From Chloroflexota bacterium (GTDB taxonomy: Bacteria; Chloroflexota; Anaerolineae; Anaerolineales; Anaerolineaceae), in assembly GCA_016887485.1 (NCBI GenBank), contig CP069394.1, positions 2,542,001-2,606,000 on the forward strand: 64,000 nucleotides of DNA, in the 5' to 3' direction. The position numbers were made by a program, and so were the translations under genes. Within the stretch, counting starts at the first letter, position 1. Each line of letters opens with the position of its first letter. This document shows positions 17,548 through 19,522 of this stretch, one piece after another. A model generated the notes under the pieces. That model was not told the DNA's origin, searched no databases, and was given only the letters and a program-made list of their open reading frames with translations.

Positions 17548-18309
17548 TTATATACTAAAATCTGATCCGGTCCAGTTGCCGTTCTCATCGGTCTCGATCC
17601 GATCTTTTTCTTCCACCTGCAAGGTGTCTTCGAGCCGGTCCAGACGGGCCAACACCTGGCGCATCGCGTCACCGAGGGTGTCGGGCAGGCGGTCATGGTG
17701 CAGGTCAATGGGTTCTTCGCTGCCCTTGTGGCTGCGCTTGACAATCTGGCCAGGTACACCAACCACGACTGAATCGGGCGGCACAGGCTTGACGACCACC
17801 GCGTTTGCGCCGATGCGGCTGCCTGCTCCGATCTCAATCGCACCGAGGATCTTGGCCCCGGCGCCTACCACCACGTTATGCCCCAGGGTGGGATGGCGCT
17901 TGCCTTTTTCGAGGCTGACACCGCCCAGAGTAACGCCATGATAGAGGGTGACTTCGTCACCGATTTCAGCCGTCTCACCAATCACCACACCCATCCCGTG
18001 GTCAATGAAGACCCGGCGGCCAATTTTCGCACCGGGGTGGATTTCAATGCCCGTGAACCAACGGGCAGTTTGTGAAAGCCAGCGGGCGGGGAAATAGAGC
18101 TTGTGGTTCCAGAGCCAGTGGCTGGCCCGATAGACCCAGATGGCGTGCAGGCCGGCGTAGTTTAACAGAACCTCGGCCCAGTTACGGGCTGCGGGGTCCC
18201 GGTGCAGTGCGCAACGGATATCTTCCACGATCATTTTAAACAAACCGATCTCCTTATCCATATTGGCCCGGATCGATCGGGGGTATTTCAGCAGGGTTGT
18301 GTCTGTCAT
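17548..18309 (-). CDS. cysE: Serine O-acetyltransferase
   Basis: The 253-residue CysE has an N-terminal helical domain (residues 1-80) followed by left-handed beta-helix hexapeptide repeats. [25 protein letters not shown] (catalytic Asp-His pair) and LYHGVTLGG are the classic signature. It acetylates serine with acetyl-CoA to give O-acetylserine, the substrate of CysK. A charged C-terminal tail of about 50 residues extends beyond the usual end and could alter the interaction with CysK. The ATG at 18309 follows GGAGGA and lies 23 nt after cysK, so the two form an operon under the cysK leader. Confidence 0.94.
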
Positions 18310-18332: not shown

Positions 18333-19265
18333 TTAATCCCGAATGTCATCAAACAAGGGTGTGCTGAGGTAGCGTTCGGCAAAGGACGGGATGATGACCA
18401 CGATCAGCTTGCCTTTGTTCTCCGGTCGTTTCGCCACTTGCAGCGCGGCCCAGATGGCCGCACCGGAGGAAATTCCAACCGGCAGCCCTTCCTGGGTTGC
18501 CAGCGCCCGGGCTGTGGCAAATGCATCTTCGCCGGTCACTTCAACGATCTCGTCATAAATTGAGGTGTTGAGGATCTCGGGGATGAAACCCGCACCGATA
18601 CCCATCAGGGGGTGGGGACCTTTTTCGCCACCCGCTAAAACAGGGGAGGCAGCCGGTTCCACAGCGACAACTTGAATGTCAGGGTTGTGGGCTTTCAGGC
18701 CTTCGCCGACACCGGTGATGGTGCCGCCGGTGCCAACACCCGCGACCAGGATATTGACTTTGCCGTCGGTATCACGCCAAATTTCTTCGGCAGTGGTGAG
18801 GCGGTGGATTTCAGGATTGGCGGGATTACCAAACTGGTTGGGCATGAAGTAGCGCGGGTCGGAAGCGACCAGCTCCCGAGCCTTATTGATTGAACCTTGC
18901 ATGCCTTCATTCGCTGGCGTGAGGATCAATTCCGCACCCAGAACCTTCATCATCATCTTGCGTTCATAACTGACCTTTTCGGGCATGATAATTACGCAAC
19001 GATAGCCGCGGGCAGCTGCCGTCATCGCTAGGGCGATGCCTGTGTTGCCGCTGGTCGGTTCCACAATGATGCTGTCTGGTTTGAGCAGGCCGGCTTTCTC
19101 GGCGGCATCAATCATGGCCACGCCAACCCGGTCCTTTACGGAGTGGGCGGGGTTGAAATATTCCAATTTGAGGACAACATCGGCCACCGAATCCTGGTTC
19201 AGGCGGTTGAGCCGCACCAGGGGGGTGTTACCGGTTAATTCCGTAATATTGTTATAAATTTTCAT
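18333..19265 (-). CDS. cysK: Cysteine synthase A (O-acetylserine sulfhydrylase)
   Basis: The protein is 310 residues from the ATG at 19265, with GGAG 9 nt upstream. The PLP-binding lysine is in [11 protein letters not shown], the phosphate and substrate loop is [12 protein letters not shown], and [11 protein letters not shown] binds the cofactor phosphate. PVGISSGAA near the C-terminus completes the CysK signature. It combines O-acetylserine and sulfide to make cysteine. It is the first gene of cysK-cysE. A 220-nt leader with a Cys-codon peptide precedes it, so feedback by cysteine supply at transcription or translation is likely. Confidence 0.95.
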
Positions 19266-19306: not shown

Positions 19307-19439
19307 AACCAGTCGTTTAAATCAAAAGGCAGCGAAACGCTTGCACCGCAATAATTAGTGTGCGGGGCTGTCCGCCGCCCAGATCGACTGGTTGAATGAT
19401 TTCTCTTTACAACGTCTGGACGGTGACTAGCGACCCCGC
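19307..19439 (-). promoter_or_regulatory. Candidate cysteine attenuator leader of cysK-cysE
   Basis: Between the leader peptide and cysK the RNA can form competing pairings. GCGGGG in the last peptide codons (19434-19439) can pair with CCCCGC (19362-19367). That excludes a CCGCA/TGCGG hairpin (19346-19350 with 19361-19365). Downstream, GCAAGCG and CGCTGC form a short bulged stem (19329-19344) followed by the U-rich stretch CTTTTGATTT, a weak terminator candidate. A 9-bp long-range stem, AACCAGTCG with CGACTGGTT (19385-19393 with 19307-19315), encloses the whole. Ribosome position on the peptide would decide which pairs form. These pairings are read by eye and no energy was calculated. Confidence 0.5.
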
Positions 19440-19462
19440 CTCAGACACAAGCAATAAAACAT
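19427..19462 (-). CDS. Cysteine-containing leader peptide upstream of cysK
   Basis: An 11-codon frame reads MFYCLCLRRGR and then stops at TAG. The ATG at 19462 has AGGAG six nt upstream (19469-19473) and lies about 26 nt after the predicted transcription start. Cysteine codons at positions 4 and 6 fit a peptide whose translation stalls when Cys-tRNA is scarce. A second frame starting at 19467 (MSCFIACV) also has two Cys codons but is too close to the ribosome binding site. The peptide itself probably has no function beyond sensing. Confidence 0.55.
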   Translation of the reverse strand: MFYCLCLRRGR

Positions 19463-19481
19463 GACATACTCCTAATATGAC

Positions 19482-19497
19482 AATTATTATCATAATT
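19482..19497. promoter_or_regulatory. Inverted repeat overlapping the cysK -10 box
   Basis: AATTAT-N4-ATAATT is a perfect dyad that overlaps the -10 hexamer and the predicted start site of the cysK transcript. Its position suits a repressor operator. The regulator is unknown, and the AT-rich composition makes chance occurrence possible. Confidence 0.3.
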
Positions 19498-19522
19498 ATA
19501 ACGAGAATTGTAAAAGAGTCAA
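19495..19522 (-). promoter_or_regulatory. Sigma-70-type promoter of cysK-cysE
   Basis: The minus strand has TTGACT (19517-19522), a 16-nt spacer and TATAAT (19495-19500), the best-formed promoter in the window. Transcription should start near 19488. Confidence 0.75.

Follow-up and report, generated by a model that had tools for sequence, protein, structure and literature searches.

The trp, his, and leu leaders of Proteobacteria are the classical ribosome-mediated attenuators, and the ilvB1 uORF of M. tuberculosis is a ribosome-mediated attenuator as well (PMC13236596). Attenuation through cysteine codons is already known or predicted in Actinobacteria, M. smegmatis, and Rhodobacterales. The uORFC-8-2 element of Rhodobacterales, located upstream of cysS, is a predicted Cys-codon transcription attenuator with an intrinsic terminator; its Cys codons form a tandem pair, most often at positions 14 and 15, and it is found only before cysS and in this one proteobacterial order (PMC8632094). 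Cys leader peptides have been predicted upstream of cysteine genes in Mycobacterium, P. acnes, and B. longum, where the Cys codons form runs near the stop codon and no conserved terminator hairpins were found (PMC1262725). The Cys leaders of M. smegmatis are cited as an example of translation attenuation (PMC13236596), and mycobacterial cysteine leader ORFs are reported to be leaderless (Canestrari 2020). Leader RNAs also control this pathway in Firmicutes, whose sulfur genes have T-box and SAM (S-box) leaders. These work without a translated leader ORF, and Rfam includes models of both.

The element described here is located upstream of cysK-cysE in a member of the Chloroflexota. As in the classical attenuators, a short leader ORF contains codons of the product amino acid, the antiterminator and terminator are mutually exclusive, and a ribosome at the stop codon is predicted to block the antiterminator. 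A 1:2 hairpin, the counterpart of the protector or pause hairpin of the trp subtype, is predicted beside the terminator in 63 of 84 leaders once the free RNA is finished, but in only 6 of 84 before segment 4 is made. The element differs from the classical attenuators in the C-x-C spacing of its Cys codons, in an antiterminator base made of the codons that separate the Cys codons from the stop, in its nested inner and outer terminators (35 of 90 leaders), and in its association with a set of Chloroflexota sulfur genes. Like uORFC-8-2, it is predicted to attenuate transcription by means of cysteine codons and an intrinsic terminator, but its C-x-C occupies codons 4 and 6, it lies upstream of cysK, and it belongs to another phylum, where it accompanies biosynthesis and sulfur genes. 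It shares with the actinobacterial leaders a Cys-codon ORF upstream of cysteine genes; however, it does not meet the criteria for a polycysteine leader, having C-x-C, five codons before the stop, and terminator-like hairpins. No T-box or SAM leader was matched with Rfam in this leader or in 19 related loci. The class of mechanism is known, and the architecture, gene set, and phylum are new as far as our literature searches reach. The original prediction knew of no case described in this phylum; we found none reported for Chloroflexota in the open-licence literature searched, which is only weak evidence of absence.

The window analyzed is a 64,000-nucleotide stretch of contig CP069394.1, and the entire attenuator element and cysK-cysE are on its minus strand; coordinates below are those of the window. 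cysK (18333 to 19265, with its ATG at 19265) encodes cysteine synthase A (TIGR01139, 459 bits; cut-off, 351), and cysE (17548 to 18309) encodes serine O-acetyltransferase (TIGR01172, 249 bits; cut-off, 211). The nearest CysK proteins in named records come from the Anaerolineaceae MAGs L217 (91%), L253 (87%), and L150, a Brevefilum sp. (82%). A AACGCCCC-TTTC-GGGGCGTT stem downstream of cysE (17200 to 17181) is likely a terminator and could perhaps be shared with a convergent gene.

The original prediction had claimed a promoter, a Shine-Dalgarno (SD) sequence, an 11-codon frame, complementary segments, a hairpin excluded by their pairing, and a 9-bp stem, and each of these was confirmed at its coordinates. 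The promoter, TTGACT-16-TATAAT (19495 to 19522), matches the consensus at 11 of 12 positions, and TTGACN-16-TATAAT is present in 12/12 sequences of the genus that were compared (the truncated L010 was excluded). The SD sequence AGGAG (19473 to 19469) is separated by 6 nt from the ATG (19462) of the leader ORF, MFYCLCLRRGR, which spans 19427 to 19462 including the stop and whose frame and stop are conserved. Its Cys codons are UGC at codon 4 (19453 to 19451) and UGU at codon 6 (19447 to 19445), with five codons between C-x-C and the stop.

Directly behind the −10 box is an inverted repeat, TGATAATAATTGTCA (19492 to 19478), and a similar repeat was seen in all 12 genus promoters compared. We take it to resemble a Fur/PerR-type 7-1-7 box, and by this analogy a metal or redox repressor might act on the same promoter.

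The codons that follow the Cys codons form segment 1, GCGGGGU (19433 to 19439), the 5′ strand of the antiterminator base. In the fold of the window leader, it pairs with segment 3′, GCCCCGC (19368 to 19362), the 3′ strand; the complementary cores are GCGGGG (19439 to 19434) and CCCCGC (19367 to 19362), and covariation, described below, backs the pairing. What had been missed is that the helix extends inward to a second one, in which segment 2, CCGUCCAGA (19423 to 19415), pairs with segment 3, UCUGGGCGG (19383 to 19375), so that the base and 2:3 helices make up a single antiterminator hairpin of −34.5 kcal/mol. Segment 2 has an alternative partner in segment 1, with which it forms the 1:2 hairpin, as its 3′ strand, once the leader is finished, and segment 3 is common to the antiterminator and the inner terminator in the folds. 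What had been described as a short stem and a closing stem proved to be a nested pair of terminator-like hairpins with a T-rich stretch behind each of them: an inner one, GGGCGGCGGA/TTCGCTGCCT followed by TTTGATTTA (19327 to 19380), and an outer one, AACCAGTCG/CGACTGGTT followed by TTGTGTTTT (19307 to 19393), with a 9-bp stem (19393 to 19385 and 19315 to 19307). The CCGCA/TGCGG hairpin (19365 to 19361 and 19350 to 19346) and GCGGGG/CCCCGC are mutually exclusive because their bases overlap. The claimed competition of folds is refined in one respect: an antiterminator whose base comes from the codons behind the Cys codons competes with two nested terminators, in place of GCGGGG/CCCCGC competing with CCGCA/TGCGG alone.

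Both regions of the window leader are unusually stable. The 96-nt terminator region folds with −37.8 kcal/mol (z = −4.1; 0/200 shuffles as stable), and the leader from 19488 to 19288 has a z score of −3.06 (1/200 shuffles as stable). Conservation in relatives outweighs these statistics as evidence against chance.

CysK matches were present in 112 of 147 genomes of the family. We examined the DNA upstream of 110 CysK-type matches, 30 of them automatic loci and 80 fetched, leaving out the remaining matches, which were mostly paralogues or partial genes. The core UGC-N3-UGU-N5-GCGG was found in 90 of these 110 regions; the 20 without it include distant paralogues. By eye, six coreless regions (L030, L051, L054, L055, L105, and L106) have other short Cys-rich leader ORFs, several of them followed by terminator-like stems of a different design. 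It is possible that cysteine attenuation arose anew more than once.

The 90 core leaders allowed the three reading frames to be compared. An upstream in-frame ATG is present for the Cys frame in 89, and for the other two frames in only 4 and 14. The first stop of the Cys frame falls at codon 7 to 9, counted from the first Cys codon, in 77/90 leaders, and stops in the two other frames are scattered. An SD-like start was found for the Cys frame in 45 leaders and for each of the other frames in 1. A second count of starts gave 44 SD-led leaders, 26 that are leaderless by position (the start lies 4 to 10 nt behind a −10-like hexamer), and 20 that are neither, and the SD-led and leaderless-by-position leaders use the same frame. 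These sequence tests support translation of the leader ORF, which remains an inference from sequence alone. Promoter-like pairs were found upstream in 79/90 leaders, compared to 73/1,800 mononucleotide-shuffled regions, so that transcription appears to start upstream of the peptide, as predicted; this too is sequence evidence, and the starts are unmapped. Conservation of the frame and of both Cys codons in relatives, on which the attenuator reading depended, was thereby confirmed, and that reading is strongly supported by the relatives.

The pairing of the antiterminator base was analyzed in an alignment of 84 of the 90 core sequences. L019, L096, L013, L024, and L038, in which the partner is unclear, masked, or displaced, were excluded, as was L041, which equals L040. 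In these 84 leaders, the distance between the first base of the first Cys codon and the 3′ end of CCCCGC is 74 to 109 nt. Compensated variants of the base occur as GCGGAGATA/TATCTCCGC in L042 and L043, GCGGAATAG/CTATTCCGC in L078, and GCGGGATGA/TCATCCCGC in L088. Both sides of the base helix are changed in 45 cells of the alignment, a count reached by 0/500 shuffles (mean, 18.1; standard deviation, 4.0), and the covariation score is 0.189, compared to 0.112 in shuffles (0/500 reach it). Sliding the partner reduced pairing from 84.9% to at most 55.1%. Two of the five measures did not exceed shuffles: 5 base-helix pairs show a double change, a number that 68/500 shuffles reach, and there are 17 further pair types, a number that 185/500 reach. 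One slid register also gave 45 double-change cells.

Beyond the family, we aligned 60 class-level sequences that were not used to train the covariance model, after dropping 6 weak antisense matches of 66. One base pair is G-C in 48, A-T in 9, and G-U in 3 of these 60, the A-T type being the GCGAGGG/CCCTCGC form. The three inner pairs of the nine-pair helix are paired in only 36, 47, and 30 of the 60 rows. Because the register of the family alignment was set by complementarity and the class-level alignment was fitted to the model, paired percentages in both are biased towards the structure. The compensatory changes that had been proposed as a check were nonetheless found, and they support GCGGGG/CCCCGC as the base of a long antiterminator hairpin, an inference drawn, like that of translation, without experiment.

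A stem with a T-rich tail lies downstream in 82/90 leaders, compared to 14.6% of shuffles; these stems are terminator-like on sequence evidence only. By the criteria applied, the other 8/90 leaders have no terminator. At least two candidates, some of them overlapping, are present in 38 leaders, and strict nesting of an inner in an outer stem is present in 35/90. The outer stem is rewritten freely with its complement kept, as in AACCAGTCG/CGACTGGTT, AGCCGACCGGCA/TGCCGGTCGGCT, and ACGGTCAACTT/AAGTTGACCGT. Pairing is better between the two arms of one leader than between arms exchanged among leaders in 71/84 (base), 72/84 (2:3), and 66/84 (terminator) cases. Measured against dinucleotide shuffles, the antiterminator segment has a median z score of −4.04 (below −2 in 80/84 leaders), and the terminator segment has a median of −3.78 (below −2 in 65/84).

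To follow the switch, we predicted folds of the uncovered RNA for four states: a ribosome at the first Cys codon (Cys1), at the second (Cys2), or at the stop codon, and no ribosome. A ribosome covers about 12 nt 3′ of the first base of its A-site codon, and this footprint was used for masking; counts for the stop state rest on 83 leaders, because one did not fold there. As long as segment 4 is missing, segments 2 and 3 are predicted to share 4 or more pairs in 84/84 leaders at Cys1, 84/84 at Cys2, 33/83 at the stop, and 78/84 without a ribosome. The base helix formed in 84, 0, 0, and 78 leaders, respectively; the zeros at Cys2 and the stop arise by construction, because its bases are covered. 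At full length, terminator pairs were present in 65/84 leaders at Cys1, 72/84 at Cys2, 81/83 at the stop, and 65/84 without a ribosome. A 1:2 hairpin of at least 4 pairs was present in only 6/84 free leaders before segment 4; in the finished free leaders it occurred together with the terminator in 63/84, and the base helix in 19.

A stall at Cys1 thus favors the terminator at full-length equilibrium as often as the absence of a ribosome does, and equilibrium folding alone does not tell stalled from ribosome-free leaders. Since the terminator is favored at full length even with a ribosome stalled at a Cys codon, the antiterminator must act kinetically. It is favored in the untranslated leader before the 3′ arm of the terminator exists (78/84). 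Known attenuators likewise depend on the order of RNA synthesis. The model consequently rests on the order of synthesis and on removal of the antiterminator by the ribosome at the stop codon, and it leaves the fate of an untranslated leader undetermined.

In the proposed mechanism, transcription would begin upstream of the 11-codon leader ORF. When Cys-tRNA is short, the ribosome would stall at UGC (codon 4) or UGU (codon 6). A stall at either codon would let segment 2 pair with segment 3, and a stall at the first would also let GCGGGG pair with CCCCGC, giving one long antiterminator. With this hairpin formed before the 3′ arm of the terminator is made, RNA polymerase would continue into cysK-cysE. 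When Cys-tRNA is plentiful, a ribosome at the stop codon would cover segment 1 and part of segment 2; segment 3 would then be left to the two nested terminators, and transcription would end before cysK. Stalling, termination in the cell, and the response to cysteine are inferred parts of this model, for which there are no expression data.

We also searched GTDB genomes with the DNA pattern alone, blind to any protein, and obtained at least 120 loci. By title, 113 of the 120 are from Chloroflexota. The other seven (Azospirillum, Verrucomicrobiota, Pandoraea, Modestobacter, Gemmataceae, Streptomyces, and Planctomycetota) gave no hit to any query and resemble chance matches. Among ORFs that start 60 to 480 nt behind the core, the longest encodes a CysK family protein in 91/120 loci and CysE in 2/120 (93/120 together). 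With tblastn, 107/120 stretches of up to 8 kb matched at least one of six queries (CysK, CysM-like, CysE, rhodanese, DUF4395, and MetA) somewhere; 13/120 matched none, and five of these end within 300 nt of the core. Family scans downstream found rhodanese, DUF4395, homoserine O-succinyltransferase, and thioredoxin fold proteins.

The covariance model matched 90/396 genomes of the class at an E value of 0.01 or better and 38/400 genomes of the phylum at 0.001, with all but one weak match (G776) falling within the class of the window, in a sample whose share of genomes from other classes is not given; both runs used stricter filters, which lose weak matches. Of the model matches at the class level, we examined 70 (30 automatic and 40 picked by place) and left out weaker ones. 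Anaerolinea thermolimosa is record L215. Five of the longer leader peptides had no match in a family scan. Among the 60 class-level loci beyond the family, 53 matched one of the six queries, and in the other 7 we identified the longest ORF starting within approximately 700 nt. Three of these (L265, L272, and L296) have a sulfite/nitrite reductase-like ORF behind the element. L273 encodes an O-acetylhomoserine/O-acetylserine sulfhydrylase (TIGR01326, 632 bits; cut-off, 495), L291 encodes a cystathionine gamma-synthase (NF005871, 585 bits; cut-off, 513), and L300 encodes a Cys/Met-metabolism enzyme that is split into two pieces. In L297 the ORF is that of a YeiH-type putative sulfate exporter starting 513 nt behind the core, which is below the NCBIfam cut-off for TIGR00698 and above the Pfam cut-off for PF03601. 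Some loci have smaller unidentified ORFs between the leader and the enzyme, such as one of 167 amino acids in L272. These associations suggest, as an inference from sequence, that one type of attenuator is common to a set of sulfur genes in Anaerolineae.

A DUF4395 membrane protein recurs behind the element (L117, L131, L162, L208, L249, L293, and L294), and this recurrence links the domain, whose function is unknown, with the supply of cysteine or sulfur. A thioredoxin-like ORF lies behind DUF4395 in L151 or L235.

The Cys codons themselves are constrained at synonymous sites. In the fetched class-level loci, the second Cys codon is UGU in 60/60 rows; for the first, 55 rows have UGC and 5 have UGU. 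L265 has UGC/UGU. The model was trained on UGC/UGU and therefore favors such rows, and the tally was taken from the fetched loci. Within the family, the core pattern fixes both codons, and a looser scan found UGC in second place at one site only, outside a leader (L074). A class-wide pattern with free wobble bases matched 92/396 genomes, many at chance-like places, and did not resolve codon choice. A pure Cys-codon model does not require the fixed U of the second codon, which is an unexplained constraint. The element makes the UGC-then-UGU order directly testable.

Several other explanations could be considered. The leader could be a riboswitch-like RNA that binds a metabolite or protein, with the short ORF incidental. 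A riboswitch would also show strong nucleotide conservation (UGC..UGU, GCGG, and CCGC) and alternative folds. However, the frame-specific conservation of start and stop and the switch between SD-led and leaderless starts within the same frame argue against it, as does Rfam, which had no match at the gathering score to the window leader and none in the 19 related loci; at a permissive threshold, the only matches over the leader were far below the gathering score. We consider this reading very improbable.

We give as little credence to a translational attenuator, in which leader translation would govern access to the cysK ribosome-binding site, as reported for the mycobacterial polycysteine leaders. 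In its favor, translation attenuation is cited as the way in which M. smegmatis regulates its cysteine genes (PMC13236596). Against it are the terminator-like stems with T-rich tails in 82/90 leaders and the position of the cysK SD sequence (19278 to 19271), which begins 28 nt beyond the outer stem. In the centroid fold of 19488 to 19240, the first bases of this SD sequence are paired only in a weak local 4-bp stem (UUGG/CCAA) and not in the attenuator hairpins.

Sensing by the nascent peptide, in which thiol chemistry or metal binding at C-x-C, and not Cys-tRNA shortage, would stall the ribosome, is likewise most unlikely. The conservation of C-x-C and the fixed wobble base of the second Cys codon could be cited for it. 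The middle residue, however, varies (L, M, I, V, A, P, and T in the family, and also S and R beyond it), and neither the number nor the identity of the residues before C-x-C is constant, with as few as one to three in leaders such as L007, L022, L199, and L268, too few to fill the exit tunnel. Finally, a single sequence could hold a short ORF and GC-rich complements by chance, but chance features of an ordinary 5′ UTR are all but excluded by the presence of the core in 90/110 family loci and by a DNA pattern that alone leads to sulfur genes.

The reading that we prefer, a ribosome-mediated transcription attenuator sensing charged tRNA-Cys, is very likely, with the reservation that all of the evidence is computational and the cysteine response is untested. 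Also weighing against it are the 33/83 leaders that retain 2:3 pairing with a ribosome at the stop codon, the 8/90 leaders without a terminator by our criteria, and the 20/110 regions without the core. The translated frame, Cys codons, promoter, covarying antiterminator base, terminator stems, and sulfur gene association have sequence support, and on that evidence the element has these features of a transcription attenuator: a translated leader ORF, a terminator, a covarying antiterminator, and pathway genes. Cysteine thereby gains a well-supported candidate transcription attenuator in Chloroflexota, complete with covarying antiterminator and terminators.

A bolder reading is possible, though less likely than not, in which much of sulfur assimilation and of cysteine and methionine synthesis in Anaerolineae is under the control of this Cys-codon attenuator, which would be on by default and include a layer of UGU decoding. 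The antiterminator would be the first structure to arise as the RNA grows, and the genes would therefore be on unless a ribosome translated the leader as far as its stop codon. If this is true, a cis-acting RNA would take a role held elsewhere by protein regulators or riboswitches, and decoding of one synonymous codon, UGU, and not cysteine alone, would set the response. Independently of this bolder reading, the signature of a C-x-C-x-x-R-G leader with GCGGGG/CCCCGC ties genes of unclear role, such as those for DUF4395 and the YeiH-type transporter, to sulfur supply. The element also points to a way in which a large class, few of whose members have been cultured, may control its cysteine and sulfur genes.
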